From assembly GCA_026415155.1 (NCBI GenBank), contig JAOAHQ010000064.1, forward strand, positions 1-41,208: a stretch of DNA of 41,208 bases, given 5' to 3'. This stretch comes from Rhodocyclaceae bacterium. Lineage in GTDB: Bacteria; Pseudomonadota; Gammaproteobacteria; Burkholderiales; Rhodocyclaceae. Below the pieces are notes generated by a model. That model was not told where the DNA came from. It did not search any database and worked only from the letters and a program-made list of their open reading frames with translations. The position numbers and the translations under genes were made by a program. Positions 14,175 to 27,409 of the stretch are shown here, in pieces (the first letter of the stretch is position 1; each line of letters starts with the position of its first letter).

Positions 14175-14513
14175 TTACTTGCCGCCGATGGCGCCGACGC
14201 GATTTCCGGCGGCGTTTTGCTGGCCGACGGCAGCCGCCGTCGCGCCTTGTGCGCGCGCATCGATGCGCGTATTGCCGATCAGATTGACGCCGCCGCTCGT
14301 CGCCTGCTGCGCGGCTGGGGTGCCGGAGGGCGCCGCGGCACTTGCGCTGCTCGCCGTGCTGCCGGAGTAAGTCTTGCTTTCCGCCGCCGTCATCGCCGGC
14401 AGGGGCGCGCCGCTCGCGAAGCCGCGCGGATGGCTCGAGCGCTGCACCGGTTCTTCCTGGGCCCCAACCTGCGCGCCTGCCAAGAAGGCAAGACCGAGGA
14501 AAACTCTCTTCAT
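14175..14513 (-). CDS. Secreted G/N-rich repeat protein (one repeat)
   Basis: 112 aa. Signal peptide MKRVFLGLAFLAGAQVGA, a low-complexity middle (Ser/Ala/Pro) and one C-terminal copy of the locus repeat (GGVNLIGNTRIDARAQGA followed by TAAAVGQQNAAGNRVGAIGG). The same unit occurs twice in the neighbouring gene at 14585. Repeats of this type, with regular G-N turns between short hydrophobic strands, resemble curlin-like or beta-solenoid units; that is inference. Last gene of the minus-strand arm, behind a probable attenuator hairpin, so it should be made in smaller amounts. ATG at 14513 is preferred because the signal peptide starts there. Confidence 0.75.
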   Translation of the reverse strand: MKRVFLGLAFLAGAQVGAQEEPVQRSSHPRGFASGAPLPAMTAAESKTYSGSTASSASAAAPSGTPAAQQATSGGVNLIGNTRIDARAQGATAAAVGQQNAAGNRVGAIGGK

Positions 14514-14530
14514 CTGTCGTATCCCGAAGG

Positions 14531-14564
14531 AAAAACGGCGGCCCGCCTTTTTGACGAGCCGCCG
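14531..14564 (-). terminator. Intrinsic terminator/attenuator between two repeat-protein genes
   Basis: Minus strand: CGGCGGC (64-58 of 14500) pairs with GCCGCCG (42-36), and five T residues (14535-14531) follow. It lies between the gene ending at 14585 and the gene starting at 14513, so it should cut down read-through into the last gene. Confidence 0.6.
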
Positions 14565-14584
14565 CATCTGCTCAAATGAGCCGA

Positions 14585-14917
14585 TCAGTTGCCGCCGATC
14601 TGACCGACGGTGTTCTCGGCCTTGTTGCCCTTGCCAACGGCGACGGCGGTTTGCTTGCCGGCGACCGCATTGATGTTGGTATTGCCCTTGATGTTGGTGC
14701 CGCCCTTGATGGCGCCGACGGTGTTCTTCGCCGTGTTGCCTTGACCCACGGCCACGGCGGTCTGCTGGCCGGCGACGGCGTTGATGTTGGTGTTGCCCTG
14801 GATGTTGACGCCGCCAGAGGTGGCTTGCACGCTGCCCGGCGCAGCTTGCACACCGGCCTGGGCGAAGGCGAGGGCGGAGGCGGCGGAAAGGATGCTGGCG
14901 ATGATGAGTTTGCGCAT
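14585..14917 (-). CDS. Secreted G/N-rich repeat protein (two 37-residue repeats)
   Basis: 110 aa. Signal peptide (about 1-20, ALAFA) followed by two nearly identical 37-residue repeats that fill the mature protein: GGVNIQGNTNINAVAGQQ-TAVAVGQGNTAKNTVGAIK and GGTNIKGNTNINAVAGKQ-TAVAVGKGNKAENTVGQIG. Alternating hydrophobic residues with Gly-Asn turns and Gln/Asn ladders suggest stacked beta-strand-loop-beta-strand units, similar in style to curlin repeats (Q-x-G-x-x-N-x-A), so a fibre subunit is plausible. No cysteine is present. A clear AAAGGAG lies upstream of ATG 14917. Together with the genes at 14175, 15909, 18191 and 18701 it forms a family on both arms of the locus. Confidence 0.82.
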   Translation of the reverse strand: MRKLIIASILSAASALAFAQAGVQAAPGSVQATSGGVNIQGNTNINAVAGQQTAVAVGQGNTAKNTVGAIKGGTNIKGNTNINAVAGKQTAVAVGKGNKAENTVGQIGGN

Positions 14918-14949
14918 GGTGATGCTCCTTTACTAGGTGGTGGGAAAGA

Positions 14950-15609
14950 TCAGCCGATCACGCGGAACTGCACGCGACGGTGTTTCGGGTCTGTCGGGTC
15001 AAGCCCCGGCAGAAGATCGGTCGGCCCCTTGCCGACGGGCACGATGCGCGTCGGGTCGATGCCGAACCGGTCGATCAGGTAGTTCATCACGGCGAAGGCG
15101 CGCTCGCGCGAGAGCGCCATGTTGCGCTGGTAATTGCCCGTGATGTCGGTATGACCTTCGACGAGCAGGCGAATGCTCGGGTCTTTCTGCATCAGGCCGG
15201 CGATCGATTGCAGGAAGGGGATCGACTCGGGCAGGATCTGGCTGCTGCCGGCCTTGAACTGGATCGGGAAGGCGATCGCGTTTTCCGAAACCTGCATCGT
15301 CTGAGCGACCGCTGGCTGAGGTGCAGCTACGGCATAGCTGGGCGTCTGGGCCGGCATTGGGGCAGGGGCACTCTGCGGCGCGGCCTGAGGCTGGGCTGGC
15401 GCGGCATCGGCTGGCGCCGAATCACCGAACACGATGGCCCGCGTCTTGAATTTCTTTTCTCCACTCTTGCCGCTGCCCATGAGCTTTTGTTGCAATTCTT
15501 CGACGCTCGGCGCCTTCTCATAGACGGTGACTTCTGCCCACGCGCCAGCCGCCAGCATGAGGCTCGCCGTCAGGCCGGTGGCCCATCTCCAAGACTTACT
15601 TGCAGACAT
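14950..15609 (-). CDS. OmpA-family peptidoglycan-binding protein
   Basis: 219 aa. Signal peptide (about 1-25, AGAWA) then an Ala/Pro/Gln-rich linker (about 68-105), then an OmpA-C domain (about 110-219) with PIQFKAGSSQILPES, LLVEGHTDITGNYQRN and LSRERAFAVMNYL. The Asp of GHTD and the Arg of SRERA are the family's diaminopimelate-binding residues. There is no beta-barrel and no lipobox, so it is a soluble periplasmic protein that binds the wall. Its start overlaps the upstream gene's end by 14 bp, which implies coupled expression. In this locus it could anchor or brace the export apparatus to peptidoglycan (inference). Confidence 0.9.
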   Translation of the reverse strand: MSASKSWRWATGLTASLMLAAGAWAEVTVYEKAPSVEELQQKLMGSGKSGEKKFKTRAIVFGDSAPADAAPAQPQAAPQSAPAPMPAQTPSYAVAAPQPAVAQTMQVSENAIAFPIQFKAGSSQILPESIPFLQSIAGLMQKDPSIRLLVEGHTDITGNYQRNMALSRERAFAVMNYLIDRFGIDPTRIVPVGKGPTDLLPGLDPTDPKHRRVQFRVIG

Positions 15610-15898
15610 TGATGATCTCCTTCGCCGTGACGATCGTTTCCTTGGAATCCTTGCTGCCGGGTGAGGCGCCGACGTTCATCGTGCAGGTGCCGGCGCGTTT
15701 GCTGCCGATATTGACCTGGGTCTGCTGCTTTTGCATGCCTTCGGCGCCGCTTTGCAGATAGCCTTTCGCCAAGGCCTTATTGACCTTCGATTGGCCGCGC
15801 GGATTGAGATGCGTGCCTTCATTGAGCGCCCAGGCCGGCAACACGATTGTCGCTGCCAAACCGATGATGACGCTTACCGCGAACTTGCCGAGCTTCAT
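15596..15898 (-). CDS. Small exported Cys-containing protein of the repeat-protein operon
   Basis: 100 aa. Signal peptide MKLGKFAVSVIIGLAATIVLPAWA, a basic-polar middle (LNPRGQSKVNKALAKGYLQSG) and a C-terminal part with two cysteines (GTCTMNVG... and ...EIINVCK at the very end). The piece VNIGSKRAGTC resembles CINIGTKGVDGC at the end of the protein encoded just upstream (15909-16421), so the two may share a disulfide-closed cap. ATG 15898 follows GAGGAGA. Not recognised as a named family; function unknown. Confidence 0.72.
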   Translation of the reverse strand: MKLGKFAVSVIIGLAATIVLPAWALNEGTHLNPRGQSKVNKALAKGYLQSGAEGMQKQQTQVNIGSKRAGTCTMNVGASPGSKDSKETIVTAKEIINVCK

Positions 15899-15908
15899 CG
15901 TTCTCTCC

Positions 15909-16421
15909 TCATTCACAGCCATCGACGCCCTTGGTGCCGATGTTGATGCAACCCTTCTGGCCCACGCCGCCGACGACATTGGTGATGTTGCCGACGCCGA
16001 CGGTCACATTGCCCTTCCCGCCCTTGACGACGCCGACATTGGTCTTCGCCGTATTGCCGGCCCCTGCGGCGACCGTCGTCATATTGCCCACCGCGGCATT
16101 GATCTGGGTCGGACCGCTCGTGTTCTTCGCCACGCCGACGTTGCTCTGCGCCTTGTTGTAGGCGCCGGCGGCCACCGTCGTCTGCGCACCGACCACCGCA
16201 TTGATCTCGGTGCTGCCGCCGCTGCCCTTGACGACGCCGACATTGCTCTGCGCCTTGTTGCCGAGCCCCGCAGCCACTGAAGTCTGCGCTCCGACGACGG
16301 CATTGATCTCGGTATTGCCGCGCACAACCCCCCCTTGCGTTTGGGCTTGAGCCAGCTGCGGAACACCGCCCACGAGGCATAGCACCGACGCTGCCACGAT
16401 GACACTCTGTGCTTTTTTCAT
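15909..16421 (-). CDS. Secreted G/N-rich repeat protein (three to four repeats, Cys cap)
   Basis: 170 aa, first gene of the minus-strand arm. Signal peptide (about 1-26, PQLAQA), then repeats starting GGVVRGNTEINAVVGAQT, GGSTEINAVVGAQT and SGPTQINAAVGNMT, each followed by a second strand pair of the form VAAG-x-x-NKAQSNVGV. A shorter fourth unit (GNVTVGVGNITNVVGG) and a capped end CINIGTKGVDGC with two cysteines follow. The repeats are the same family as those at 14585 and 14175. Likely a beta-helical or amyloid-like surface subunit; the cap may stop or nucleate stacking (inference). ATG 16421 is chosen over an ATG four codons upstream because GGGAGCG precedes it at the right distance. Transcription would start in the shared divergent region. 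Confidence 0.8.
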   Translation of the reverse strand: MKKAQSVIVAASVLCLVGGVPQLAQAQTQGGVVRGNTEINAVVGAQTSVAAGLGNKAQSNVGVVKGSGGSTEINAVVGAQTTVAAGAYNKAQSNVGVAKNTSGPTQINAAVGNMTTVAAGAGNTAKTNVGVVKGGKGNVTVGVGNITNVVGGVGQKGCINIGTKGVDGCE

Positions 16422-16464
16422 GGTCGCTCCCATGGTGCCTTCAACGCACCCATTGATTCGGGGG

Positions 16465-16549
16465 TTGACAAGCCTTCGCTTGGCTTGCTCTCATTCAAGA
16501 CGGATACTCTCCGCCAGTTGTTGACCGAAGTCAACACTGTCGAGAATTT
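16465..16549. promoter_or_regulatory. Divergent control region with palindromic operator
   Basis: A perfect 7-bp palindrome TGTTGACCGAAGTCAACA (16519-16536) lies between the divergent arms. It contains TTGACC on the plus strand (16521-16526), followed 17 bp on by GAATTT, and TTGACT on the minus strand (16534-16529), so it could hold two back-to-back -35 boxes under one repressor. A second inverted repeat CAAGCC/GGCTTG (16469-16474, 16482-16487) overlaps another TTGACA (16465-16470). The -10 matches are weak. That the 209 bp between starts drive both arms is inference from gene orientation. Confidence 0.45.
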
Positions 16550-16630
16550 TCTCTCTAAGGTAACGGTATCTGGGCAGGCCAAGCCGTGTCGTCGGCGACA
16601 GGCTCGATCAATTCATTCGTGAGGTTTGTC

Positions 16631-18178
16631 ATGAAGACGCAACAATCCCTGGTCACGGTTTTTCCTTCCATTCCTTCTCCTTGGCCTGCGGTGCTGGCAT
16701 TGAGCCTGGCGTTGGCAGGATGTGTCGCCGATCCGCCCAAGCCCGAGACGGCAACGGTCGCCACGGCCGTGAAGACGCCGGCGGCGAAGACGGTGACCAA
16801 TTTCACGCCAGCCCTGCGCTGCATGGACGACCTCCTGCTTGCCTATGGCAAGCGCGATATCGTCATCACGACGGCGGGTATTCCCGATTCAACCGGCAAG
16901 GTGATGGCCGGCACCAAGGAGATGCTGATCACCGCCGCCTCGAAGATGTCGATCAAGAGCAAGGCGCTCACCTTCATCGACTACGATACTGAGCGCGCCG
17001 ATCTCTTGGCGCTCTTCCAAGACATCCAGGCAGCGGGCGCCTTCCAGCACAAGCTGCCCAACTATTACATCCGCGGCGCGATCACCCAGCTCGACGAGAA
17101 TGCGATCGACGCGCAGCAGGGTGCGGGGATCGCCTTGCCCTTCCTCGATCTCGGCGTCTCACGCGATCAGGTCTCCTCCGTCGTGTCGATCGACATGAAC
17201 GTCGGCGAAACCACCTCGCGCATGATTTTGCCGGGCGTCAATGCCAGCAACTCGCTCGTCATCACGCGCACCGGCAAGGGCGGCGAGCTGGGCGGCCGGC
17301 TTGGCAAGGTCGGCTTCTCGTTCAACATGTCGCTTAACAAGGCGGAAGGCTTGGGTTCCGGCGTGCGCGCGCTGATCGAGCTCGGCATGATCGAGCTCGT
17401 TGGCAAGCTGACCAATGTGCCGTATTGGAAATGCCTCGAGATCGAGAAGACCAATCCGGTCATGATCGAGCAGGCGCGCGAGTGGTATGACGGCATGAAG
17501 CCCGAAGACCGCGTCAAGCTCGTGCAAAGGAAGCTTGCCGGCATGAACTATTACCAAGGGCCTGTGAATGGCATCGTCTCGAAGGAGCTTACGAGCGCCA
17601 TCGGCAAGTTCCAAGCCGAAAACGGCCTCATCGCCGATGGGCGCATCAATTTCGAGCTCTATTACGCGCTGCTCGATGCCGATCAGCCGCTGGCAGCCGA
17701 TCCGACGGCCGCGGCTGCGCCGGTCGTCGCGGCTGCGCCGCGGCCGGCGGCAGCAAGCGGGCCCCTCACGGTCAAGCTCGACACGGATCGCGGCCCGCGC
17801 CCCACCTACCGGACGAAAGAGTTCTTACAGGCGCGTGTGCAGCTCTCGGGCGATGGCATCCTCTATTGCTACTACCGCGACAACTCCGGCGTGATCGCGC
17901 GCATCTTCCCGAACCGCTTCAATCCGGATTCCTTCGTGCGGGCGGGTCGGCCGATGTCCTTGCCTCCCGAAGGATCGCCGTTCAAGATCCGCTTCGATCA
18001 GCCGGGACAGGAGCAGATCGTCTGTTACGCAAGCGAACGCGATCTGCCCTTGCCGGCAAACCTCAAGGCGGCGGATCTGACCCCGCTCAAGGTCGCCTCG
18101 CTCGAGGAAATCGCGCAGGCCTTCCGCAAGTCGAATCCGAACGTCGCCGAGGCGAAGCTCGAGATCACGGTGCGATGA
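16631..18178 (+). CDS. Lipoprotein with CsgG/HfaB-like region, peptidoglycan-binding and DUF4384 domains
   Basis: 515 aa, first gene of the plus-strand arm. A lipobox LALAGC puts the lipid on Cys31. Residues about 60-270 have the layout of CsgG/HfaB outer-membrane secretion lipoproteins: LFQDIQAAGAFQH, then NYYIRGAITQLDE (compare EGSIIGY in CsgG), a VVSIDMNVGETTSR beta-hairpin region, and a final helix GSGVRALIELGMIELVGKL. Residues about 290-345 are a peptidoglycan-binding repeat (RVKLVQRKLAGMNYYQGPVNG). After an Ala/Pro linker comes a DUF4384 domain (about 378-475). CsgG-type proteins form the pore that exports curli subunits; this one would be tied to the wall by its extra domain. GAGG lies 7 nt before ATG 16631. 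The CsgG call rests on remembered patterns, not on a profile search. Confidence 0.78.
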   Translation: MKTQQSLVTVFPSIPSPWPAVLALSLALAGCVADPPKPETATVATAVKTPAAKTVTNFTPALRCMDDLLLAYGKRDIVITTAGIPDSTGKVMAGTKEMLITAASKMSIKSKALTFIDYDTERADLLALFQDIQAAGAFQHKLPNYYIRGAITQLDENAIDAQQGAGIALPFLDLGVSRDQVSSVVSIDMNVGETTSRMILPGVNASNSLVITRTGKGGELGGRLGKVGFSFNMSLNKAEGLGSGVRALIELGMIELVGKLTNVPYWKCLEIEKTNPVMIEQAREWYDGMKPEDRVKLVQRKLAGMNYYQGPVNGIVSKELTSAIGKFQAENGLIADGRINFELYYALLDADQPLAADPTAAAAPVVAAAPRPAAASGPLTVKLDTDRGPRPTYRTKEFLQARVQLSGDGILYCYYRDNSGVIARIFPNRFNPDSFVRAGRPMSLPPEGSPFKIRFDQPGQEQIVCYASERDLPLPANLKAADLTPLKVASLEEIAQAFRKSNPNVAEAKLEITVR

Positions 18179-18190
18179 AGGAGACGGGCG

Positions 18191-18682
18191 ATGCGCAGGC
18201 ATTGGCTGCTAGGCGCGTGGTTGTGTGCCGCGTCGCCGGCCTTCGCGGGCGAGATCATCATCGTCGATCCCGCCCGCGAGAAGGCGCAGTCGCTGCCTGC
18301 GCCGGCCGCTTCGCCCCGGCATGAGGAATCGCGCGCGCGTGCGCTCGATGAAGCGCGTGCGCGCAGCGGCCGCGAGGCGATCGCGCCGCGCATCCTCCTC
18401 GAAGGCGAGCCGGGCGCGCCCGCAGGCGAGCGCGTGCGCGAAGCGCGCGGCTATCTCGACGAGTCTGCCGTCCCGCCAGCGCCGGCTTTGATCATCAAGA
18501 GCGGCCCGCCGCCTTCCGACGCGAGCCAGGCACGCGAGAAGGCGCGCGCTTGGGTCGCACCGCCTGCCGCCAACAACCCGAGCCGCTGCCGCACCGAAAA
18601 CACCGTCGGCGGCATCGAGGGCAATGTGCAAGGGCATACGGTCATCCAGGGCAATGCGAGCGGCGTTACTATCTGCAAATGA
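18191..18682 (+). CDS. Exported protein with C-terminal G/N-rich module
   Basis: 163 aa. Signal peptide (about 1-19, SPAFA), a charged Arg/Glu/Ala-rich middle (about 35-125) and a C-terminal module CRTENTVGGIEGNVQGHT...GNASGVTICK. This module begins and ends with a cysteine and shares NTVGxIxGN with the repeat proteins of the opposite arm. A single strand-turn unit closed by a disulfide is likely. It could be a minor subunit, cap or nucleator for the repeat proteins (inference). GAAGGAG precedes ATG 18191, 12 bp after the CsgG-like gene. It carries an antisense copy of the dispersed 20-nt word (18467-18486). Confidence 0.72.
   Translation: MRRHWLLGAWLCAASPAFAGEIIIVDPAREKAQSLPAPAASPRHEESRARALDEARARSGREAIAPRILLEGEPGAPAGERVREARGYLDESAVPPAPALIIKSGPPPSDASQAREKARAWVAPPAANNPSRCRTENTVGGIEGNVQGHTVIQGNASGVTICK
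18467..18486 (-). repeat. Dispersed 20-nt word, copy 5
   Basis: The minus strand reads GCCGGCGCTGGCGGGACGGC, preceded by ATCAAA as in copy 1; one base off consensus. Antisense to the exported-protein gene. Confidence 0.55.
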
Positions 18683-18700: not shown

Positions 18701-19078
18701 ATGAGAAAAGCCCTTTGGATCGGTGTGATGACGCTCGGGGCGGCGGCCATCGCAGAAGCGCAAATCAGCATTTCGTCGGGCGGTCAAGACGTGCGCATCG
18801 GCGCCGACGGCGCCGTGAGCGTCAAGGGCGCGGGGCAGGATGTGCGCGTCGGCGCCGGCAGCCAGGTGTCGGTCGGCAGCGGCAACGAAGTCGGCTCTTC
18901 CGTGGGTTCGATCGCGCCGGGCGCCAATATCGAGGGCGTCACGATCATCAACGGCAAGCTGTGGATCGACGGCAAGGAGATCCCCCCCGGGGTCAAGACC
19001 TACAAGTCGCCGAAGACCGGCAAGATTTACAAGATCGAGCGCCAAGGCAAGAACGTTTCCGTCACCAGCAACGACTGA
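18701..19078 (+). CDS. Secreted G/N-rich beta-repeat protein
   Basis: 125 aa. Signal peptide (about 1-20, AIAEA), then short repeats SGGQDVRIGADGAVSVKG and GAGQDVRVGAGSQVSVGS, and a unit GNEVGSSVGSIAPGANIEG that matches the GN-x-x-x-x-x-VGxI signature of the minus-arm proteins. The C-terminal 45 residues are a basic tail (KSPKTGKIYKIERQGKNVSV). The alternating V/I-G pattern predicts a beta-roll or solenoid. GAGGAG lies upstream of ATG 18701. Probably part of the same export/fibre system; not a named family. Confidence 0.74.
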   Translation: MRKALWIGVMTLGAAAIAEAQISISSGGQDVRIGADGAVSVKGAGQDVRVGAGSQVSVGSGNEVGSSVGSIAPGANIEGVTIINGKLWIDGKEIPPGVKTYKSPKTGKIYKIERQGKNVSVTSND

Positions 19079-19085
19079 GGCCGCC

Positions 19086-19619
19086 ATGAACGCGTTGCGT
19101 ATCGTTTTGCTGGCGGCAAGCCTTGCGATCTTTCCCGCACGGGCTGAACTCATCGTCGCCGACAAGAGCGTGCCGCCCCACGAGTTCGCCTACGAGCACC
19201 CCTTCCTGCGCTTTCTCGTCTTTTCGAGCCCCGAGACGCGCGGCCAGGCGATCCTGCCACCCGCGCCGGTGTTCGTCGCCCCTCCGCCGCTCCTCTGGCG
19301 CGCGCCCGGGGCCATGCCGCCCTATCCGCCGGCCACACCGCGGGGATTCAACCTAAGCGGCGCGCCAAGCAACCGCGATCTTGCGAGCTATTCGCTCGCC
19401 CGCGCGCACGCGATGGGGCAGGGGGTCTATCGGCGCGAGAACGGCTGGTCGCTCTATTTCGGCCCGACGACCTGGCTCGGCACGCCGCTTTACGGCTGGG
19501 GCGCGCCGGCTTATCCGCCCGTCGCGCCGGGGGCGAGCCATCCCTCGAACCGCGACAATGCGAGCTACCTGATCGAGCGCGCGCACCGCTTCAGCCAGGA
19601 TGCCTACCGCAAGCCCTGA
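19086..19619 (+). CDS. Exported protein with duplicated SNRDxASY motif
   Basis: 177 aa. Signal peptide (about 1-20, FPARA), a Pro-rich centre (PPAPVFVAPPPLLWRAPGAM) and two copies of one motif: SNRDLASYSLARAHAMGQG-VYR and SNRDNASYLIERAHRFSQD-AYR, separated by a Tyr/Trp/Gly-rich stretch (SLYFGPTTWLGTPLYGWGAP). Not recognised as a known family. The duplicated motif is probably a short helix pair. The start is 8 bp after the preceding gene; the end overlaps the next start by 20 bp. Confidence 0.68.
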   Translation: MNALRIVLLAASLAIFPARAELIVADKSVPPHEFAYEHPFLRFLVFSSPETRGQAILPPAPVFVAPPPLLWRAPGAMPPYPPATPRGFNLSGAPSNRDLASYSLARAHAMGQGVYRRENGWSLYFGPTTWLGTPLYGWGAPAYPPVAPGASHPSNRDNASYLIERAHRFSQDAYRKP

Positions 19620-20505
19620 TTGGCTGCGCCTGCTGCAGCGCCTTCTTTTAGGCGCGCTTCTTTTCTTTTGTTTCCTGCAAAACGCGGCAGGCCAAACACT
19701 CGAGCGCCTGCCGGCGCCACAGCCCGCGAGCTACGAAGCGATCCTCGCCGCGAAGAGCGAGAGCGTGCAGGTGTTTGCTTACCCGGGTCGCCAGCCAATC
19801 TACGTCATCGACTTCCCGACGCTCGCGGCGCAAGGCCGCATGTTCAACCGCATCGTCGCCCTCGTCGAGCGCATGGGCGTGGGCCGCGCGCGCGTGCTCG
19901 ACGATCAGGAACTCGCCCAATTCATCCGCTCGGTGGGCAAGACCGAATATACCTTCGCCTATGGCAACGATTTTCTCGTCTCCGAGCTCGTCGTCTTCTT
20001 CAATCTCGCCGAATACGGCTCGATCGCCTTGACTGCCGAAGAGCGCGCGCTGCGCGCGTTTCTGATCGAGCAAGGGCTGATCCGCGAGCGCTTCGGTTTT
20101 CTGCAAGCGGTGCGCCCCAATGCCGTGATCCTCTCGATTCCGCAGGAAAAAGCGGGGGGTAACGAGCCCGCCGTGACGGCGCTCGCCCGCCAGACGATCC
20201 TGATGCACGAAATCGCGCACGCCGAGTTTTATACCAACCCGCTCTACCGCGCCTGGTGCCGCACGTTCTGGCGCGAGGTGCTCACTGAACGCCAGCGCAG
20301 CGCTCTGCGTGCCTTTCTCGCCAAATCGGGTTACGATCCGGATAACGAAGAATTGATGATCAACGAAGCCCAGGCGTATCTTCTCTACACGCCCGATCCG
20401 CGCGCCTTCAATGCCCAGATGGCAGGGCTTGCGGAGCGGGAACTTGCCGAGATGCGCGCCGCCTTTCTGAAAGGATTTCCCGATGCGCCCCTTTACAAAC
20501 GCTAG
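19600..20505 (+). CDS. Exported HExxH putative metallopeptidase
   Basis: 301 aa. An N-terminal hydrophobic segment (about 10-30, LLQRLLLGALLFFCFLQNAA) is a signal peptide or anchor. HEIAH at 203-207 is a zincin motif, and NEAQAY (Glu256), about 50 residues on, could be the third zinc ligand of a gluzincin. The rest has no family I can name. Given its place among surface-protein genes it might trim or mature exported subunits, or be an inactive relative. The ATG at 19600 overlaps the previous gene by 20 bp, and its own end overlaps the next gene by 23 bp, so tight coupling is likely. Confidence 0.66.
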   Translation: MPTASPDWLRLLQRLLLGALLFFCFLQNAAGQTLERLPAPQPASYEAILAAKSESVQVFAYPGRQPIYVIDFPTLAAQGRMFNRIVALVERMGVGRARVLDDQELAQFIRSVGKTEYTFAYGNDFLVSELVVFFNLAEYGSIALTAEERALRAFLIEQGLIRERFGFLQAVRPNAVILSIPQEKAGGNEPAVTALARQTILMHEIAHAEFYTNPLYRAWCRTFWREVLTERQRSALRAFLAKSGYDPDNEELMINEAQAYLLYTPDPRAFNAQMAGLAERELAEMRAAFLKGFPDAPLYKR

Positions 20506-21142
20506 TATCGGATTTCGCCATTGGTTTGTCTGCCTGATCTGCGCCCTAGCCTGCACCGCCTTCGCCCAAGAAGACCGCGGTGCCCTGATCACCGCCCTGG
20601 AGGGCAAGGCCACGCTCGTCAAAGGCATCGAAAAGCGGCCGCTCGCTCCCTTCGAGCGGCTCGAAGCGGGCGACGTCGTCTCGCTCGAACAGGGCAAGCT
20701 CACCATCGTGTTTTTCCTCACCGGCCGGCAAGAAACCTGGCAGGGCACGGGCAAGCTCGAAGTCGGGCCTGGAGAGGGCAAGGGCAGTGGACTCCCTGCG
20801 CCCGAGGCGAAGACCCTCGCGCCCTTCCTCGTCAAACAGATCGCCCGCACGCCGACCCTGCTCGCCCAGGGCCGCGCCGGGGTGATGCGCCTGCGGGCGA
20901 TCGCTACACCCGAGGCAATCGCCAAGGTCGAGGAGACCTACAAGCGCTTGCGCATGGAAACCCCCGCCGAGGATCTCGCGCCCGAGATGTACCGGCTCTC
21001 GGCGCTCTTCGACATGAAGGCCTTCGAGGCGCTCGATGTCGCGGTCAAAGAGCTCGAGGTGTCGCGGCCGAACCACAACGAGGCGAAGCTGCTGGCGAAT
21101 CTTTATCGCAAAGCGTTGAAAAATGTTCAGGAAGCCCGGTAG
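20483..21142 (+). CDS. Exported FecR-like domain protein
   Basis: 219 aa. A signal peptide (about 1-28, ALACTAFA) precedes an N-terminal beta-domain (GKATLVKGIEKRPLAPFERL, then LEAGDVVSLEQGKLTIVFF) that resembles the FecR periplasmic fold in its spacing of 'G-x-V..G..L..GD.V..' elements. A helical C-terminal half follows (about 115-219). Free-standing exported FecR-like domains occur in surface-polymer loci and usually act as binding modules. ATG 20483 follows AAAGGA; it lies inside the end of the previous gene. Function not known. Confidence 0.6.
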   Translation: MRPFTNASIGFRHWFVCLICALACTAFAQEDRGALITALEGKATLVKGIEKRPLAPFERLEAGDVVSLEQGKLTIVFFLTGRQETWQGTGKLEVGPGEGKGSGLPAPEAKTLAPFLVKQIARTPTLLAQGRAGVMRLRAIATPEAIAKVEETYKRLRMETPAEDLAPEMYRLSALFDMKAFEALDVAVKELEVSRPNHNEAKLLANLYRKALKNVQEAR

Positions 21143-21179: not shown

Positions 21180-22244
21180 ATGAAAACCGCCCTCAAGATT
21201 TCTCTTGCCGCAGTGGCTTGCTTGACGAGCTCCGCTGCCTTCGCTACGTCATGTGCATCCGTTTTGTCTTCTTATGCGAGCGGTTCCGTTCCTAATGAAC
21301 CGCAATACCACCCAGAATGTTTTGGTGCGAGCCCTCAGACATCAACTGTCTCGATCAACCAGACGGCCTTCACGCAGATCTCGGCGATCTCGACCGCGCT
21401 GGCGAACCGTTTCCTGGCTGCGCCGCCGACTCGTGTCGCAGGGCTTAATGCCGGCACCGCTGCTGCTGCACCGGGTAAGCTCTGGAATGTCTGGGGCAAT
21501 CTGACCGATGGTCGCACTCGGCAGGAATATTTCCGGCCGCTTACCGGCAACAACATCCGCATCTCGACGGATTCCCTGACGACGGTGATTGGCGGTGACT
21601 ATGCGATTTCCTCGATGCTGGTTGCTGGCGTCTCGGCGTCTTTTGATCGAGCGTCCGGCGAGAGCTATGCAGGGGGGGTGAAATCGGTTGATCTGCTAAA
21701 CAAAGGCTACATCATCGCGCCCTACGTCGGCATGAGCATCAGCAAGGAACTGGCTCTTGATGCCTCGATTGGCTTGGGAGTAGGCGAACTTTCCCAGACC
21801 GACAACGTCACGGCCGAGGCCGACCGCTGGTTCCTGGGCGTCAACCTCAACTACTCGAGCTGGCTCGGCAACACCCAGCTTTCTGGACGGCTGGGTTGGT
21901 TGCATGGCGAGGAAAAATACGACAATGCCAAGAACAATGGTGCAATATTCAACAACACTGGCGCAAGGAACCGCATCGACCAGTTGCGTCTTGGCGGCCA
22001 GGCCGCCTGGTGGATGAATGGCGTAATGCCCTATGTGGGCCTTGCCTATGTCTATGAAGATCGCCGCACGACGCTTGCGGGCGCCAAGGATCCGATCGGC
22101 AAGGACGGCTGGCAGTGGACGCTCGGCGCGAACTTCCTCTCCGTCGGTGCAGGCGTGACCGGCGGCATCGCCTACACCGAGGAGGAAGGGCGCAGCAATC
22201 AGCGCAATCGCGTGCTCTCTGCCAACATCGGCCTGCGCTTCTGA
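21180..22244 (+). CDS. Outer-membrane beta-barrel protein, autotransporter-barrel-like, without passenger
   Basis: 354 aa. Signal peptide (MKTALKISLAAVACLTSSAAFA), a short N-terminal region with two cysteines, then about 260 residues of alternating amphipathic strands (DYAISSMLVAGVSASFDRAS; ADRWFLGVNLNYSSWLG; RLGGQAAWWMNGVMPYVGLA) ending in the aromatic C-terminal signature NIGLRF typical of outer-membrane barrels. This resembles an autotransporter (type V) barrel, but a passenger of any size is missing. It may be an outer-membrane docking or translocation partner for the repeat proteins. The first third has visibly less GC-rich codons than its neighbours, which hints at separate ancestry. 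GGAGACAGG precedes ATG 21180. Confidence 0.75.
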   Translation: MKTALKISLAAVACLTSSAAFATSCASVLSSYASGSVPNEPQYHPECFGASPQTSTVSINQTAFTQISAISTALANRFLAAPPTRVAGLNAGTAAAAPGKLWNVWGNLTDGRTRQEYFRPLTGNNIRISTDSLTTVIGGDYAISSMLVAGVSASFDRASGESYAGGVKSVDLLNKGYIIAPYVGMSISKELALDASIGLGVGELSQTDNVTAEADRWFLGVNLNYSSWLGNTQLSGRLGWLHGEEKYDNAKNNGAIFNNTGARNRIDQLRLGGQAAWWMNGVMPYVGLAYVYEDRRTTLAGAKDPIGKDGWQWTLGANFLSVGAGVTGGIAYTEEEGRSNQRNRVLSANIGLRF

Positions 22245-22253: not shown

Positions 22254-23051
22254 ATGCTGTCGAACAAGGCCGCGGGCGTGCTCGCGGCCTTTTCGTTTTG
22301 GCTTGCCGGTTGCGCCTGCGGCCTGCCGGTGGGCGAGCTAAAGCGGCTCGATCAGGCGCTCGAACGCGCAGGCTTCGAACATCGCCGTCTGATGAGCGCC
22401 GACTTTCCCGTCCATGCCTGGCTGCGCCGCGGCGAGGGCGAGGCGCTCTCCGTCGTCATCGAAGGCGATGGCGCGGCCTGGTTCAATCCGCGCTGGCCGC
22501 CGCCTGATCCGACGCCGGAACACTCCCAGACCGCCGCGCTGGCCGCTGCGCTCGGCGGCCCGGTCGCTTATCTTGCCCGCCCCTGCCAGTTCGAGCGCGC
22601 TGCCGCGTGCCGCATGGAACACTGGACGACGGCGCGCTTTGCGCCCGAGCTCCTCGAATCGCTCGATGCCGCGCTCGAGGAACTAAAACGAGCTGCCGGC
22701 GCGAAGCGGCTGCGCCTCGTCGGTCATTCGGGCGGCGGCGTGATGGCGGTGCTGCTCAGCCTACGGCGCAGCGATGTTTCAGCCGTGGCGACCTTCATGG
22801 CGCCGCTCGCGGTTAACGAGTGGACGCGCATGCAAGGCTTGTCGCCGCTCGTAGGGGCCGATCCGATGCGGCTTCCTTCGCTGGCGGTGCCGTCCATGCA
22901 TGTCGCGGGCGGGCGCGACGCGGTCGTGCCGCCTGCCATCGTGCGCGCCTATGCCGAGGCGAAAGGTGGTAAATATGTGCTCTGGCCCGAGGCCGATCAC
23001 GCCTGCTGGCCAATCGAGCGCGCCAGAGAACTCATCGGGAGCCTGCCATGA
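22254..23051 (+). CDS. Lipoprotein alpha/beta hydrolase
   Basis: 265 aa. Lipobox LAGC (Cys20) in FSFWLAGCACG. An alpha/beta-hydrolase fold with nucleophile motif GHSGGG (Ser159), a likely acid Asp222 (AGGRDAVVPP) and His249 (EADHACW) gives a complete catalytic triad. The substrate is unknown; exported esterases or peptidases of this kind often act on cell-wall or lipid esters. The stop overlaps the start of the caspase-like gene (ATGA), so they are coupled. It carries a weaker copy of the dispersed 20-nt word (22384-22403). Confidence 0.8.
   Translation: MLSNKAAGVLAAFSFWLAGCACGLPVGELKRLDQALERAGFEHRRLMSADFPVHAWLRRGEGEALSVVIEGDGAAWFNPRWPPPDPTPEHSQTAALAAALGGPVAYLARPCQFERAAACRMEHWTTARFAPELLESLDAALEELKRAAGAKRLRLVGHSGGGVMAVLLSLRRSDVSAVATFMAPLAVNEWTRMQGLSPLVGADPMRLPSLAVPSMHVAGGRDAVVPPAIVRAYAEAKGGKYVLWPEADHACWPIERARELIGSLP
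22384..22403 (-). repeat. Dispersed 20-nt word, copy 6 (divergent copy)
   Basis: The minus strand reads GTCGGCGCTCATCAGACGGC, preceded by GGGAAA as in copy 3. The two ends match and the centre differs. Weakest copy apart from copy 8. Confidence 0.35.
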
Positions 23052-24103
23052 TGCGTCATCTCGTTTTCCTGCTTTTCTTCGCGGCCCAGTCCATCTGGGC
23101 GCAGTTTCCGCCGATGTTCATGGGCGGCCCGCCAGGCTTTGCCCAGTTCCAGGCGATGGTCCTGCAGCGCCACCAGGCGAGGACGCTGCTCTATCGGGAG
23201 GCGCTTGAAGAACTGCGCAAAAACCCCAAAGCCGCCGATGTGCCGCTCTGCCCCGCCGGGGTGAAGCCCAAGGCCGGCGAATGCCTCCTGCCGCCCGTGG
23301 CGGCGGCTCCGCCTGCCGTGGAAAAGCCAGCAGCGGCGCCCGTCGAGGAGAAGGCCCCGGCGAGTGCCGTGCCGCCAGCGCCGACTTTCGTCGGCCGCCG
23401 TATCGCCTTGCTCGTCGGCAATAATGCCTATCCGCCGCCGATTCCGGCGCTCGAGACGCCGATCGCCGATGTGACGCGCATCGCTTCCGTCTTGAAAGGG
23501 CGTTTCGGCTATGAGGTCGAACTCCTCAAGGATGCCGGCAAGGAGGCCATCATCGCTGCCTTGAACCGGCTCGCGACGCAAGCGCGGCCCGAGGATGCGG
23601 TACTGATCTTCTACGCCGGCCACGGCTACGAGATGGATGACACGAAGATGGGCTATTGGATTCCCATCGATGCCTCGGTCAAGACCGCCAAGGGCTGGAT
23701 CTCGAACGACGACATCGCGCGCCTCTTAGCGGCGATTCCGGCGCGGCAGATCATCCTCGTCTCGGATTCCTGCTTTTCTGGCACGCTCGCGCGCGAGAAA
23801 AAATTCACGCGGCCGGCAAGCACGCGGCCGGAGGAGCTCTTCCACCGCCGCTCGGTGGTCGTATTGACCTCGGGCGACGAGGAACCCGTCTCCGACGAAG
23901 GCAAGGAGGGCCATTCGATCTTCGCCTGGAATCTGATTCGCGCGCTCGAGGCAGCGGGCGGCATCACGCCAGGATATGAGGTCTGGCGCGACGTGCATCG
24001 CGGCGTGACGAAGGAATACCCGCAGACGCCGCAATACGGCGCCGTAGTCTCGGCCGGCCACATGGACGGCGGGGAGTATCTTTTCCGCCTCGAAAAGCGT
24101 TAG
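23048..24103 (+). CDS. Exported caspase-like (C14) protease
   Basis: 351 aa. Signal peptide (about 1-18, QSIWA), a Met/Pro/Ala-rich N-terminal region with a linker (about 82-112), then a caspase p20-like domain (about 117-345). The catalytic dyad is visible: His192 in FYAGHGYEMDD and Cys242 in LVSDSCFSG. IALLVGNNAYPP is the first strand typical of bacterial metacaspases and orthocaspases. It may cleave after Arg/Lys, but specificity cannot be read. Placement in an export locus suggests processing of surface proteins; PEP-CTERM/sortase-like roles are not supported by anything here. It starts MMRH at an ATGA overlap. It carries an antisense copy of the 20-nt word (23366-23385). Confidence 0.88.
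   Translation: MMRHLVFLLFFAAQSIWAQFPPMFMGGPPGFAQFQAMVLQRHQARTLLYREALEELRKNPKAADVPLCPAGVKPKAGECLLPPVAAAPPAVEKPAAAPVEEKAPASAVPPAPTFVGRRIALLVGNNAYPPPIPALETPIADVTRIASVLKGRFGYEVELLKDAGKEAIIAALNRLATQARPEDAVLIFYAGHGYEMDDTKMGYWIPIDASVKTAKGWISNDDIARLLAAIPARQIILVSDSCFSGTLAREKKFTRPASTRPEELFHRRSVVVLTSGDEEPVSDEGKEGHSIFAWNLIRALEAAGGITPGYEVWRDVHRGVTKEYPQTPQYGAVVSAGHMDGGEYLFRLEKR
23366..23385 (-). repeat. Dispersed 20-nt word, copy 7 (in caspase gene)
   Basis: The minus strand reads GTCGGCGCTGGCGGCACGGC with AAA before it, the same 23 bases as copy 3 in coaE. Here the plus strand encodes AVPPAPTF; in coaE the copy encodes AASADF, so the likeness is at DNA level. Confidence 0.6.
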
Positions 24104-24136
24104 CATTCGTCATCGGCCGACCGAGGAGCATCGATC

Positions 24137-25645
24137 ATGATCCGCCTACTGTTCGCTGTGTGCCTGTCTTGGCTGGCGACGCTCGCCTGGGCCAAGAACT
24201 ATGCCCTATTGATCGGCAATGCCGCCTATTCGATGGCACCTTTGGATAACCCCGTCAACGATGCCGTCGACTTCGCCAAGACCTTGAAGGAGATCGGTTT
24301 CGACACGCGCGTGCTGACCGACCAGAACCAGGAGGCGATGCTGCAGGCGATCCGCGACTTCGGCGAGCGGATCAAGAACAACGATGGCATCGGGCTCTTC
24401 TTCTTCGCCGGTCACGGTGTGCAGGTCGATGGTGAAAACTACCTCTTGCCGGTCGGCGTGCCGATTAGGAACGAAGAGGAAGTCAAGAAAAACGCGGTGC
24501 CGGCGAATCTCGTGCTGCGCTACATGGAGGATTCGAAGAACCGCGTCAATGTCGTCGTGCTCGATGCTTGCCGCAACAATCCCTTCATCAAGACGCGCTC
24601 GCTGAAATCGCGGGGCCTGGCGCCGATGGATGCGCCCTCGGGCTCCCTGATCGCCTTCTCGACCGCCCCGGGCACCGAGGCGCTCGATGGCATTGGCCGC
24701 AATGGTCTTTACACCAAGCATCTGATGGCGAATGCCAAGGTGCCGGGGCTCACTGTCGAGCAGGTCTTCAAGCGCACGCGCGAGGCGGTCGAGGCCGAAT
24801 CGGAGCGGATCGCTGGCCGCCGCCAGTCGCCGCGCGAGGAGTCGAGCCTCAAGGGTGCCGACATGTACTTCGTGCCGCCGCCGGCGGGCCAGAAGGTCGA
24901 CGATGCCGCGATCGAGCTCGCCTACTGGAACAGCATTGCCAATTCGGAGAGCACGGCCGACTTCGAGTCCTATCTTGCCCAATATCCGAATGGCAAGTTC
25001 GCGGAACTCGCGAAGAACCGCCTGCAGACCTTGAAGAGCCGGCAGACGACGCTGGCCCGTTCCGAAACCCGTGCAGCCGATGGCGGTCAGCTGCCGCCGC
25101 CGGCCGCGGCCGCGGCCCCTGCGCCGGCCTATGGCCAGCCGAGCTATCCGCCGACGCGAGTGGCGGCCGCGCGTCCCGGCGGGGTTTATAGCTCGGCGCG
25201 CGCCTTCAGCTTTTCCGACGATGAAGGCGCCGTCGTCAAGGCCGCCGAGTTCCTCTCGATCAGTTGCCGCGACATGATCCGCAACAAGAAGGTCGCGTTG
25301 CAGCTCGATGACAGGAGCGGCGGCGGCGAGGTGGTGCGCCAGTCGCTCGAAGCGAAATTGAAGAGCATCGGCGTCAAGCTCGCCGCCAACAAGGCCGGCG
25401 CCGATTTCGTCGTGCGCGGCAAGATCACCGGCTCCTCGGGCGTCAATCGCTTGGTCGGCATCAACGAAGTGGATCTCACCGCGGATTTCACGCTGCTCCT
25501 CAAAAACGGCAATGCCGTGGCTTCGACTTCGGCCTATGGCTCGAGCTTTGCCGGTTCCAACCGCCAGCAGGCGATCCGCGCGCTCTGGGATGAAAAGAGC
25601 GAGGAGGTCGTCGGCCGGCTGTTCGGCGACTATTGTTCGGATTGA
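24137..25645 (+). CDS. Exported caspase-like (C14) protease with C-terminal lipoprotein-type alpha/beta domain
   Basis: 502 aa. Signal peptide (about 1-19, LAWA) and then directly the caspase domain (about 20-255): YALLIGNAAYS, His93 in FFAGHGVQVDG and Cys145 in LDACRNNPF are the catalytic pair. A helical stretch with FESYLAQYPNGKFAELAKNRL (about 274-298) and a Pro/Ala/Tyr linker (about 315-350) lead to a C-terminal domain (about 355-502) with GADFVVRGKITG and VDLTADFTLLL. That pattern recalls the CsgG/FlgO/LPP20 group of outer-membrane-associated domains, which would link protease and secretion parts in one chain (tentative). GAGGAG precedes ATG 24137, 33 bp after the first caspase gene. Confidence 0.87.
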   Translation: MIRLLFAVCLSWLATLAWAKNYALLIGNAAYSMAPLDNPVNDAVDFAKTLKEIGFDTRVLTDQNQEAMLQAIRDFGERIKNNDGIGLFFFAGHGVQVDGENYLLPVGVPIRNEEEVKKNAVPANLVLRYMEDSKNRVNVVVLDACRNNPFIKTRSLKSRGLAPMDAPSGSLIAFSTAPGTEALDGIGRNGLYTKHLMANAKVPGLTVEQVFKRTREAVEAESERIAGRRQSPREESSLKGADMYFVPPPAGQKVDDAAIELAYWNSIANSESTADFESYLAQYPNGKFAELAKNRLQTLKSRQTTLARSETRAADGGQLPPPAAAAAPAPAYGQPSYPPTRVAAARPGGVYSSARAFSFSDDEGAVVKAAEFLSISCRDMIRNKKVALQLDDRSGGGEVVRQSLEAKLKSIGVKLAANKAGADFVVRGKITGSSGVNRLVGINEVDLTADFTLLLKNGNAVASTSAYGSSFAGSNRQQAIRALWDEKSEEVVGRLFGDYCSD

Positions 25646-25660
25646 TCGAGGAGAAACATC

Positions 25661-26449
25661 ATGCGTTCCATATTTGCACTTGCGGCGGCATCGTTTGCGA
25701 TGGCAGCGCTCGCTCAGCCGGTCTTCGACAGCCCCTCGCCGACCGCCGGTTCCTCGACTTCCCAAAAGGCCCACGAGATGGCCGACCGCGGCATGTACAA
25801 GGAAGTGCAATACGTCAATGCCCACAAGCGCGGGCCGAGCCTCGTCGTCATCCCTGGCGAGATCAAGAGCAACAACGCGACCTTCACGCAGAAGTTCGGC
25901 CCCAACAACATCGCCGATTTCGCCGAATTGGAGCTGGGCCGCGCCAATTTCGCCGTGCTCGAGCGCGCCGACATGGGGCCGCTATTGCGCGAATTCGAGC
26001 TCGCCTACACGATGGGCGATCCGGCGGCGGCGCGGAAGACCTTGCAAAAGGGCAAGCTCAAGACGACCAAATGGGTCGTCAAGTTCGATGTCCTGAAGGC
26101 CGAGCAGGTCGCCAAGGCCCAGGAAGGCTTCGATGGCCGCGCGATCGGCAATGTGATCGGCATCCTGGGCGGCGGCCGCGGCTCGGCGGCCGTCGGCACG
26201 GCGGTCGGCTCGGTGCAGACGGGGGAGGCGACCGGTGTGTGGATCATCGGCATGCGCTACAAGATTCTCGATGCCAACACCACCGAGCAGGTCGCCACCG
26301 GCTACACGGAAGAGAAGATGGAGGTTGGCGCCAAGTCGACTTCGGTACTGGGCGTCTCGCAGGGCGCACAAGGGGGCTTGACGCTCGATGGCATGGTGCA
26401 GCGCCTCGTGCAAAAGCTCGTTTGGGAAATCGATTCGCGTTACAAGTGA
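25661..26449 (+). CDS. CsgG-like exported protein, paralogue 1
   Basis: 262 aa. Signal peptide (about 1-18, MAALA) without a lipobox. The body follows the CsgG pattern: LVVIPGEIKSNN (61-72), LGRANFAVLERADMGPLLRE (92-111; compare SRWFIPLERQGLQNLL in CsgG), a Gly/Ala-rich insert (158-190), the strand pair GVWIIGMRYKILDANTTEQV, and a last helix DGMVQRLVQKLVWEID. CsgG-family proteins form oligomeric outer-membrane channels or periplasmic rings. Without an N-terminal Cys this one would stay soluble or join its lipoprotein paralogue in a mixed ring (inference). It starts 15 bp after the caspase gene with GAGGAGAAA upstream. It is closely related to the next gene, a recent tandem duplication. Confidence 0.78.
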   Translation: MRSIFALAAASFAMAALAQPVFDSPSPTAGSSTSQKAHEMADRGMYKEVQYVNAHKRGPSLVVIPGEIKSNNATFTQKFGPNNIADFAELELGRANFAVLERADMGPLLREFELAYTMGDPAAARKTLQKGKLKTTKWVVKFDVLKAEQVAKAQEGFDGRAIGNVIGILGGGRGSAAVGTAVGSVQTGEATGVWIIGMRYKILDANTTEQVATGYTEEKMEVGAKSTSVLGVSQGAQGGLTLDGMVQRLVQKLVWEIDSRYK

Positions 26450-27300
26450 TCGTTTGAAAGGGGAACCCTGAACATGAAGTTCGTCGCGCAACGCTCGGCG
26501 CTCGCCGCCTTGCTTTCCGCTGCTTTGCTCTCTGGCTGCATGCAGTCCAATCCGCCGAAGCCCGAGGATGCCAACAATCCATCGCCGACTGCCGGTTCGG
26601 ATACCTCGCAAAAGGCCAACGAGATGGCCGACAAGGCGATGTACAAGCCAATCGAGTACCAGAACGTGGCGATCCGCGGCCCCAATCTCGTCGTCATCCC
26701 CGGCGAGATCAAGAGCAACAACGTGACCTTCACGCAGAAATTCAGCCCCAACAACATCGCCGACTTCGTCGAACTGGAACTGGGCCGCGCCAATTTCGGC
26801 GTGCTCGAACGTTCCGACATGGGGCCGATGCTGCAAGAATTCCAGCTCGCCTATACGATGGGCGACCCCAATGCCGCGCGCAAGGTGCTGCAAAAGGGCA
26901 AGTGGAAGACGACCAAGTGGGTCGTCAAGTTCGACATCCTGAAAGCCGAGCAGGTCGCCCAGGCCCAGCAGGGCTTCGATGGCCAGGCGGCCGGCCAGCT
27001 CATCAACATCCTCGCCGGCGGCAGCCGCGAAGGCGCGGCCGCCGGCCAGGTGGTGAGTTCGATCAAGACCGCAGAGGGCACGGGTGTGTGGATCATCGGC
27101 ATGCGCTACAAGATCCTCAACGCCAATACGACCGAGCAGGTGGCGACCGGCTATACGGAAGAAAAGATGGAAGTCGGCGCCAAATCGACCTCGGTGCTCG
27201 GCTTCTCGCAAGGCGCGCAAGGCGGCTTGACGCTCGATGGCATGGTGCAGCGCCTCGTGCAAAAGCTCGTCTGGGAGATCGATGCCAAATACAAGGGCTC
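25661..27300 (+). repeat. Tandem gene duplication of CsgG-like paralogues
   Basis: The segment 25735-26449 is repeated at about 26580-27295 with long identical runs (for example around GGCATGGTGCAGCGCCTCGT at both 3' ends). The two units encode proteins that are clearly paralogous over about 240 residues. They differ at the N terminus (plain signal peptide versus lipobox) and at the C terminus (extra tail in the second). Confidence 0.85.
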
Positions 27301-27409
27301 GGGCGCCGCCCCCGAACCGCCACCTGCGCCCGCGCCTGCCGCCAAGCCGGCGGCGGCCAAGCCCGCGGCGACGGGCAGCGCTCCTGCTAAGAAGAAGACG
27401 ACGCAGTAG
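26474..27409 (+). CDS. CsgG-like lipoprotein, paralogue 2
   Basis: 311 aa. Lipobox LLSGC with Cys22. From residue 35 to about 275 it matches paralogue 1 nearly position for position (SPTAGSDTSQKANEMADKAM; VVIPGEIKSNN; FGVLERSDMGPMLQE; GVWIIGMRYKILNANTTEQV; DGMVQRLVQKLVWEID). It then adds a Pro/Ala/Lys-rich tail of about 35 residues. The acylated Cys and CsgG-like body make it the better candidate for an outer-membrane ring. It is the last gene of the plus arm, and its end overlaps the convergent coaX gene by 23 bp. Alternative reading: an LpoB/DUF799-like outer-membrane lipoprotein with no channel role. Confidence 0.78.
   Translation: MKFVAQRSALAALLSAALLSGCMQSNPPKPEDANNPSPTAGSDTSQKANEMADKAMYKPIEYQNVAIRGPNLVVIPGEIKSNNVTFTQKFSPNNIADFVELELGRANFGVLERSDMGPMLQEFQLAYTMGDPNAARKVLQKGKWKTTKWVVKFDILKAEQVAQAQQGFDGQAAGQLINILAGGSREGAAAGQVVSSIKTAEGTGVWIIGMRYKILNANTTEQVATGYTEEKMEVGAKSTSVLGFSQGAQGGLTLDGMVQRLVQKLVWEIDAKYKGSGAAPEPPPAPAPAAKPAAAKPAATGSAPAKKKTTQ

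Follow-up and report, generated by a model that had tools for sequence, protein, structure and literature searches.

A probable CsgG/HfaB-type export locus associated with exported caspase-like proteases in Rhodocyclaceae and other bacteria

Organization of the locus

Contig JAOAHQ010000064.1 of a Rhodocyclaceae bacterium (assembly GCA_026415155.1; genome of 2.38 Mb, 83.5% complete), analyzed here as a single window of 41,208 nucleotides spanning the whole contig, carries at positions 14175-27409 a two-armed locus of 17 genes coding for a CsgG-like lipoprotein, small repeat proteins, an OmpA-type wall anchor, caspase-like proteases and other exported proteins. The locus is probably a secretion and surface-fibre system of the CsgG/HfaB kind, apparently a conserved but undescribed variant of it. 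As proposed in the initial annotation, the arms run outward from both sides of a shared 209-bp region (16422-16630) lying between ATGs at 16421 and 16631. The leftward arm (reverse strand) holds, in this order, rpA3, rpA4, ompA, rpA2 and rpA1, and the rightward arm (forward strand) holds csgG1, rpB1, rpB2, genes for a Pro-rich, an HExxH, a FecR-like and a barrel protein and a lipoprotein hydrolase, followed by casp1, casp2, csgG2 and csgG3. A signal peptide or lipobox was recognized at the start of every arm product, by inspection of the translations without a signal-peptide program, in agreement with the earlier claim that the arms contain only exported proteins. The earlier gene list was incomplete, and the genes for the Pro-rich and FecR-like proteins have been added. 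The open reading frame (ORF) caller, based on GC content by codon position, missed real genes in the window.

A CsgG-type exporter

The product of csgG1 (16631-18178) is a lipoprotein that combines a supported CsgG fold (about residues 50-270) with PG_binding_1 and DUF4384 domains. The latter two, part of the initial annotation, are confirmed by Pfam (E-values of 2.5e-10 and 8.7e-18), and the CsgG part was recovered by structure and profile comparison. The Pfam CsgG profile itself gave 13.8-13.9 bits for csgG1, below its curated cut-off of 20.8, and had no match in csgG2 or csgG3; likewise, a whole-genome profile search of the host genome returned no CsgG match at E <= 0.001. Profile-profile comparison of the csgG1 family with CsgG gave 93.7% (E = 1.9e-7), and about 85 N-terminal residues match the HfaB model (E = 3.4e-6 to 3.7e-6), which is also matched by 36 of 44 family members at E <= 0.1. 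We count csgG1 as a CsgG-fold protein because of these two results together with structural comparison of its model, in which CsgG entries exceed PelC by 2 to 4 Z units and FlgT by 2.5 to 4.7. The monomer model has candidate membrane strands at 180-193/199-214 and 219-226/229-235, partly of low confidence. A search of PDB sequences with the alignment A1 returned mostly matches of the peptidoglycan (PG)-binding type and none to CsgG; an outer-membrane lipoprotein carrier protein was matched at 0.013. Identification of csgG1 as a holdfast HfaB equivalog (NF037935) was rejected on score, 26.5 bits against a cut-off of 300.

Conservation of the gene set

All 17 genes were matched at the corresponding locus both in a genome of the same genus (G002) and in one of another genus (G209), where csgG2 and csgG3 correspond to one shared gene and an unrelated stretch of genes separates the FecR-like and HExxH genes. 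Identities to G002 range from 64% (rpA1) up to 91-92% (csgG1, csgG2), with 67% for the flanking panK. Within the genus, csgG1 was found in four of 19 genomes, one being a 51% relative, and it has a match at E <= 0.001 in 19 of 300 genomes of the order, several of these to the PG-binding part only.

A wider search yielded 143 csgG1 relatives, and the best 80 of these 143 loci were used for all counts out of 80 given below. Flanks extended at most 10 kb and many loci were clipped by contig ends, so that partner counts are lower bounds. Record titles were used to sort the 80 loci manually into 43 genus-level groups, with loci lacking a listed name set to Azospirillum; gene clusters at these loci were named mostly by inspection. 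Represented are Rhodocyclaceae, Azospirillum (20 loci), Terasakiella, Magnetospirillum, Accumulibacter, Variovorax, Rhodocyclus, Noviherbaspirillum, Azohydromonas, Thiodiazotropha, Oleiphilus, two Myxococcota records and others; L175, a Myxococcota record, is very similar to the Betaproteobacterial L149, and may be mis-binned. The best named relative is L098, a Rhodocyclaceae metagenome-assembled genome. In tblastn searches with the window proteins (E <= 1e-3), relatives were found at 64 loci for OmpA, 50 for casp1, 44 for casp2, 15 for the HExxH protein, 13 each for rpA2 and rpA3, 10 for rpA4, nine each for rpA1 and rpB2, seven for the Sel1-repeat protein of the left flank, four each for the Pro-rich protein and the hydrolase, three for rpB1 and two each for the FecR-like and barrel proteins. 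The recurrent set at the 80 loci comprises five components, namely the exporter, a repeat protein, an rpA4-like protein, an OmpA anchor and a caspase; none of the exporter's four partners was detected at every locus. The search for the same neighbourhood in other genomes thus shows a gene set recurring far beyond the host genome.

Repeat proteins and small cysteine proteins

Of the five small G/N-rich repeat proteins initially proposed, tandem repeats could be recognized in rpA2 and rpA3 and a single unit in rpA1; rpA4, rpB1 and rpB2 are small exported proteins with no repeat array. rpA2 (14585-14917) is composed of two units of about 37 residues, GNTNINAVAGxQTAVAVGxGNxAxNTVGxI, in which GxGNxA is presumably akin to the curlin unit. 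rpA3 (15909-16421), a candidate fibre subunit, aligns as beta repeats of about 34-36 residues, and rpA1 (14175-14567) has one curlin-like unit near its C-terminus, its likely start being an internal Met near 14513. None of the repeat or small proteins matched a Pfam or NCBIfam family above its cut-off, and NCBIfam offered no named family for the small proteins, the existence of HfaA/HfaD models there not having been checked.

To detect relatives, we scanned for exported proteins whose sequence contains internal repeats of 25-45 residues and is rich in N/G/Q/S/T/D, a search which also recovered relatives of rpA2. There were 53 matches less than 3 kb from csgG1 (556,055 bp) and three at more than 4 kb (715,125 bp), with none in 45 control loci (376,992 bp), a control set which excludes L021, as it holds the system, and includes a few right-hand pieces of the system. 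The 53 non-overlapping matches represent 27 of the 43 groups, and 41 of the 80 loci have a repeat protein near csgG1, a count obtained after a looser first scan (48 of 80, some of them antisense shadows) had been tightened post hoc. At least four sequence classes of similar layout were distinguished by reading: GNTNINANAxNVNAVAVGxGNTAKNAVGxI (37 residues), NSTVISTNANNSASGFLSSANQSVGxATQNGKIT (34 residues), SNVTASNIKQNQSGLLNQQKMAIGNA (31 residues) and GGDVKINVKTGAVIQKNTGIANKNEVNIGSV (38 residues). The AlphaFold model of rpA3 (pLDDT 74.9, pTM 0.68) shows regular groups of strands, and the first two of its 73 Foldseek matches are FapC and CsgA, both weak (E = 9.6e-3 and 0.15, TM 0.10); the modelled resemblance to amyloid subunits is suggestive but does not prove an amyloid.

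The small exported protein rpA4 (15596-15904; likely start near 15898) ends in the element C-x-M-N-V-G...I-V-T-x-x-IIN-x-C. Searches with two hidden Markov models (HMMs; E <= 0.01) placed its family at 51 of 80 loci and in 33 of 43 groups, with a C-x-N-[IV]-[GN]...[IV]-IN-x-C-like C-terminal element, and the two subfamilies align at 92% probability. The initial annotation had proteases standing in for the accessory factors CsgE and CsgF, a claim that finds no support here: the rpA4-family cysteine protein and the OmpA anchor are better candidates. rpB1 (18191-18682) has an Asn/Gly-rich C-terminus with two Cys and relatives in four loci from four groups, and rpB2 (18701-19078), with relatives at nine of 80 loci, has the motif VGSGNEVGSSVGSI. 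A C-terminal Cys pair occurs in several locus proteins, and a gene for a DsbC-type disulfide isomerase lies on the same contig (1572-2378; Thioredoxin_2 1.5e-28, DsbC_N 3.4e-14). Another small exported protein, with the motif CWQ-x-G, adjoins csgG1 in 31 loci from 17 groups (e.g. L106 12477-12854); no counterpart was recognized in the window.

OmpA-type anchor

The OmpA-type wall binder (14950-15609) was correctly predicted (Pfam OmpA, E = 2.1e-17). Its N-terminal stretch, APSVEELQQKL...KTRAIVF, is followed by an Ala/Pro linker. The corresponding cluster comprises 58 proteins of up to 420 residues, in which an E-E/E-V helix precedes [KR]-x-R-[GAS]-[ILV]-x-[LF]. This signature, composed after reading the N-termini, is present in 48 of 58 members and 30 of 31 groups, against a background of 2.4% of shuffled N-termini and 3.4% of 563 other ORFs; of the 10 members without it, we read six as probably other OmpA proteins, two as Variovorax variants and two as truncated ORFs. 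The conserved Arg-[Gly/Ala/Ser] of the linker would suit orthocaspase-type cleavage, but L103, L167 and L172, loci without a nearby caspase, have the motif too, and its conserved hydrophobic flank also fits docking.

Exported caspases

Both predicted C14 caspase-like proteases, casp1 (23048-24103) and casp2 (24137-25645), match Pfam Peptidase_C14 (E = 3.6e-29 and 2.9e-34, respectively), are exported and retain the His-Cys dyad (FYAGHG and DSCF in casp1, FFAGHG and DACR in casp2); casp2 has in addition a C-terminal domain (residues 331-502). An HMM built from the two proteins and iterated on the csgG1 loci detected caspases at 54 of 80 loci, in 23 of 43 groups, and at 41 of the 47 loci whose flanks exceed 9 kb on each side; none was detected at the other six of these, L103, L124, L160, L167, L172 and L174. 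The His and Cys motifs are both present in 59 of 71 caspase ORFs. The 71 ORFs in 1.40 Mb of csgG1 loci amount to 50.6 per Mb, against about 0.4 per Mb for the 83 Pfam C14 matches in approximately 205 Mb of 61 related genomes, a rough comparison of different detectors, different clades and rounded genome sizes in which the gap is nevertheless two orders of magnitude. A control of 32 loci (175,840 bp) had one match, in the system's own G209 locus, and is too small to weigh. The association of the CsgG-type locus with exported caspases is strong. In L102, L108, L113 and L121, ORFs of 974-1075 residues with a caspase-like domain match neither the His nor the Cys pattern, and are possibly pseudo-caspases. 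A defence system was considered and rejected: nine of the 17 proteins were scanned, and they match only the caspase model, apart from MotB-type OmpA matches.

Parts of the literature offer context for this association. Orthocaspases are described as cleaving after positively charged residues (available part of PMC6426788), and DUF4384 is given as an accessory domain of these proteases (available part of PMC7475262). A 2012 metacaspase survey provides a partial precedent in the portion available: 14 of its 217 operons contain OmpA, and others contain sigma factors (PMC3501461).

The csgG2/csgG3 module

The two further CsgG-like proteins of the initial annotation, csgG2 (25661-26449) and csgG3 (26474-27409), are paralogues sharing 76% identity (alignment A2); csgG3 is lipidated, and csgG2 has no lipobox. 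Better methods, which rescued csgG1, did not clearly do so here, and the two remain marginal, distant CsgG-like proteins. In the csgG2 family, Pfam CsgG is matched at E <= 1 by four of 10 members, with a best value of 0.0071, and one relative, read with its frame neighbours, exceeds the cut-off at 22.3 bits. Comparison by hhalign of A2, the csgG2 family alignment, with the CsgG set gave 1.6%, and the profile pairs A1-A2 and A2-A4 gave 1.0% and 0.9%; A2 retrieved nothing from PDB sequences at E <= 1. A deeper profile was tried and rejected, since a phylum-wide A2 search (299 genomes) built no bridge to CsgG, its only match beyond G000 and G002 being a weak one in G542 (6.2e-5).

Relatives of csgG2 occur in 17 of 300 genomes of the order, the host genome included. 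At all 15 loci L035-L049 (G000 and G002 excluded), the gene directly upstream of the relative codes for a protein resembling the C-terminal domain of casp2; it is a separate gene in 14 and casp2 itself in G209. Accordingly, casp2 combines a caspase and a csgG2-partner domain in one protein, a fusion that ties the caspase to the csgG2 module. In the wider neighbourhoods L093, L094, L096, L097 and L015, a Ser/Thr kinase gene follows the csgG2 relative. Only one of the 80 csgG1 loci has csgG2/csgG3 (tblastn, E <= 1e-3), a minimum, given that flanks reach no further than 10 kb; in the window, csgG2 starts 7.5 kb past the end of csgG1. The pair look like a local addition to the locus. A decayed casp2-csgG2/3 remnant beside panK in another genome of the genus (G003; L023 7038-8107) indicates that the locus can be lost.

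Other genes and the divergent region

The divergent region contains the dyad TTGACCGAAGTCAA (16521-16534), which we take to be of the FNR/ANR type; 0.11 matches are expected in the window, and the corresponding region of G002 also has a match (L021 15945-15958). A sigma-70 consensus scan gave one promoter-like site, below chance, and alignment of the region with L098 was uninformative.

The HExxH protein (19600-20505), a candidate metalloprotease, has the predicted motif (HEIAHAEFYTN ... NEELMINEAQAY); its relatives occur in 15 loci and 12 groups, with HE..H.E...N conserved in nine of the 15. Likewise confirmed is the outer-membrane beta-barrel (21180-22244), of the autotransporter type (Pfam Autotransporter, E = 6.5e-7, 29.8 bits, cut-off 26). 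The proposed lipoprotein hydrolase (22254-23051) has an LAGC lipobox by inspection, but its alpha/beta-hydrolase matches, including Hydrolase_4 at 1.3e-4, are all below curated cut-offs. Of the two added genes, one encodes an exported Pro-rich protein (19086-19619) without a recognized family, and the other an exported protein (20483-21142) without a Pfam match, called FecR-like on an assumed resemblance.

The left flank consists of a CHASE2-adenylate cyclase gene directly beside the locus (11448-13547; Pfam 5.5e-36 and 9.5e-27), then a Sel1-repeat protein gene, and the right flank of panK (pantothenate kinase) and a biotin ligase gene. CHASE2-type proteins lie near csgG1 in 18 loci from four groups, one member having been checked by Pfam. 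By inspection, a sigma-factor-like cluster is present in 22 loci (13 groups) and an anti-sigma-like one in 16 (seven groups); in L163 (13447-14711) and L175 (5918-7368) such genes lie between csgG1 and the caspase. Some versions of the locus look sigma-factor controlled.

Comparison with known systems

With the Fap system of Pseudomonas the locus shares FapC as the top, albeit weak, structural match of the rpA3 model; the Fap exporter FapF is of a different type. Similarity to curli lies in a CsgG-fold lipoprotein adjoining exported tandem beta-repeat proteins, whereas the PG-binding and DUF4384 domains of csgG1, the dedicated OmpA, the rpA4-like protein, the caspases and at least four repeat classes set it apart. 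Curli proper was rejected: in the four carrier genomes, two of them 84-87% complete, Curlin_rpt (PF07012) had no match at E <= 1, nor had CsgE or CsgF at E <= 0.1, the E. coli control being positive in each case. The 2012 curli survey gives the minimal curlin unit as X6QXGX2NX10 and places CsgG in a larger family; caspase, HfaA and Azospirillum are absent from its main text, in the part available (PMC3521004). In the holdfast anchor of Caulobacter, as far as the available part of PMC6707917 goes, HfaA resembles CsgA, HfaB resembles CsgG, surface targeting of HfaA and HfaD needs HfaB, and both CsgG and HfaB are tied to export of CsgA-like proteins. csgG1 partly matches the HfaB model, but lies far under its cut-off and has caspase and OmpA partners. 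As C14 proteins with His and Cys, casp1 and casp2 resemble orthocaspases and metacaspases, but differ in that the exported protease recurs by a CsgG-type locus; the available parts of PMC3501461 and PMC7475262 name no CsgG or repeat-protein partner. Precedent for FecR/CHASE2 surroundings comes from a Burkholderia biofilm operon with a LysM/FecR protein and a CHASE2 kinase (available part of PMC5192318). Among the open-licence papers covered by titles and the beginnings of abstracts, no CsgG locus with bacterial caspases is described; some papers mention both in other connections.

Proposed mechanism and alternative explanations

The lipoprotein csgG1 could form an oligomeric outer-membrane channel like CsgG, with its PG-binding and DUF4384 domains providing the link with the wall or with partners. 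Unfolded rpA1-rpA3, exported by Sec, would cross csgG1 and stack outside as curlin-like beta-solenoid fibres, and rpA4, perhaps together with rpB1/rpB2, might act as small escorts or nucleators with a C-terminal disulfide. The dedicated OmpA protein would fasten the assembly to peptidoglycan, its K-x-R-[GAS]-I-x-[LF] peptide docking onto a partner or being cut by one. The exported His-Cys caspases, here together with the HExxH protein, may act on the assembly in the envelope; their most likely task would be to trim or license the anchor or subunits, or to degrade subunits that have misfolded in the periplasm. csgG2/csgG3 and the casp2 C-terminal domain would constitute a second module of CsgG-like type that this lineage recruited.

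The proposal of a surface-fibre secretion and maturation system thus holds as regards the csgG1 fold, the recurring gene set and the tandem-repeat neighbours, and is not supported as regards proteases replacing CsgE/CsgF. Export and fibre formation remain the probable function; any specific role of the caspases is much less certain. Several observations weigh against fibre export. In none of the 20 Azospirillum loci (in the range L105-L133) is a repeat protein found within 3 kb of csgG1, while exporter, OmpA and caspase are kept, and this is the main difficulty. In addition, VIA-align scores of the rpA3 model against CsgA (5.9) and FapC (4.3) are not above that against an antifreeze protein (6.3). 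In one Azospirillum locus (L117), a repeat protein lies about 7 kb from csgG1.

An alternative that we regard as unlikely is a surface coat, made up of csgG1 and the repeat proteins, that anchors a polysaccharide adhesin, as HfaABD do, in place of free fibres. The match of csgG1 and most of its family to the HfaB model and the Caulobacter parallels (PMC6707917, in part) speak for such an anchor, but the match stays an order of magnitude below the HfaB cut-off and Pfam scans of the arm proteins recognized no polysaccharide gene. Distinctly less probable is an envelope sensor or self-digestion module, in which the CsgG-fold lipoprotein, OmpA, caspases, FecR-like protein and CHASE2-cyclase trigger proteolysis or lysis and the repeat proteins are structural passengers. 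The CsgG fold does include other lipoproteins, PelC and FlgT being among the structural matches of csgG1; CHASE2-type and sigma-factor-like genes accompany some versions of the locus, the Azospirillum versions would fit, and caspase homologues have been discussed in connection with programmed cell death (available part of PMC3501461). Yet the most position-specific neighbours are exported repeat proteins, superfluous for a sensor, and CsgG scores above both PelC and FlgT. That the caspases belong to an unrelated protease or defence island lying by chance beside an export locus is very improbable. Some genomes are indeed caspase-rich (14 each in G323 and G333), and both window caspases match the PADLOC caspase model (6.1e-10 and 7.4e-16); against this stand the caspase density at csgG1 loci, rough as that estimate is, their presence in 23 of 43 groups and the outcome of the defence scan.

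Returning to fibre export, its most specific version would be a widespread pathway sending fast-evolving curlin-like repeat proteins through a wall-tethered channel of the CsgG/HfaB type, with exported caspases controlling the fibre by cutting the dedicated OmpA anchor between Arg and [GAS] of its conserved K-x-R-[GAS]-I-x-[LF] linker, so as to switch fibres between a held and a released, or an unlicensed and a licensed, state. We consider this version quite unlikely as it stands.

Implications

Discussion of bacterial caspase homologues, in the parts of the literature available, has centred on proteases of cell death or stress whose neighbours vary. The locus provides a defined genetic context for testing an exported caspase, would tie bacterial caspases to construction of the cell surface, and adds a candidate family of functional amyloids missed by Curlin_rpt in four carrier genomes. 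If caspase cutting of the OmpA anchor were true, it would be, to our knowledge, the first defined job of exported bacterial caspases in building the cell surface.

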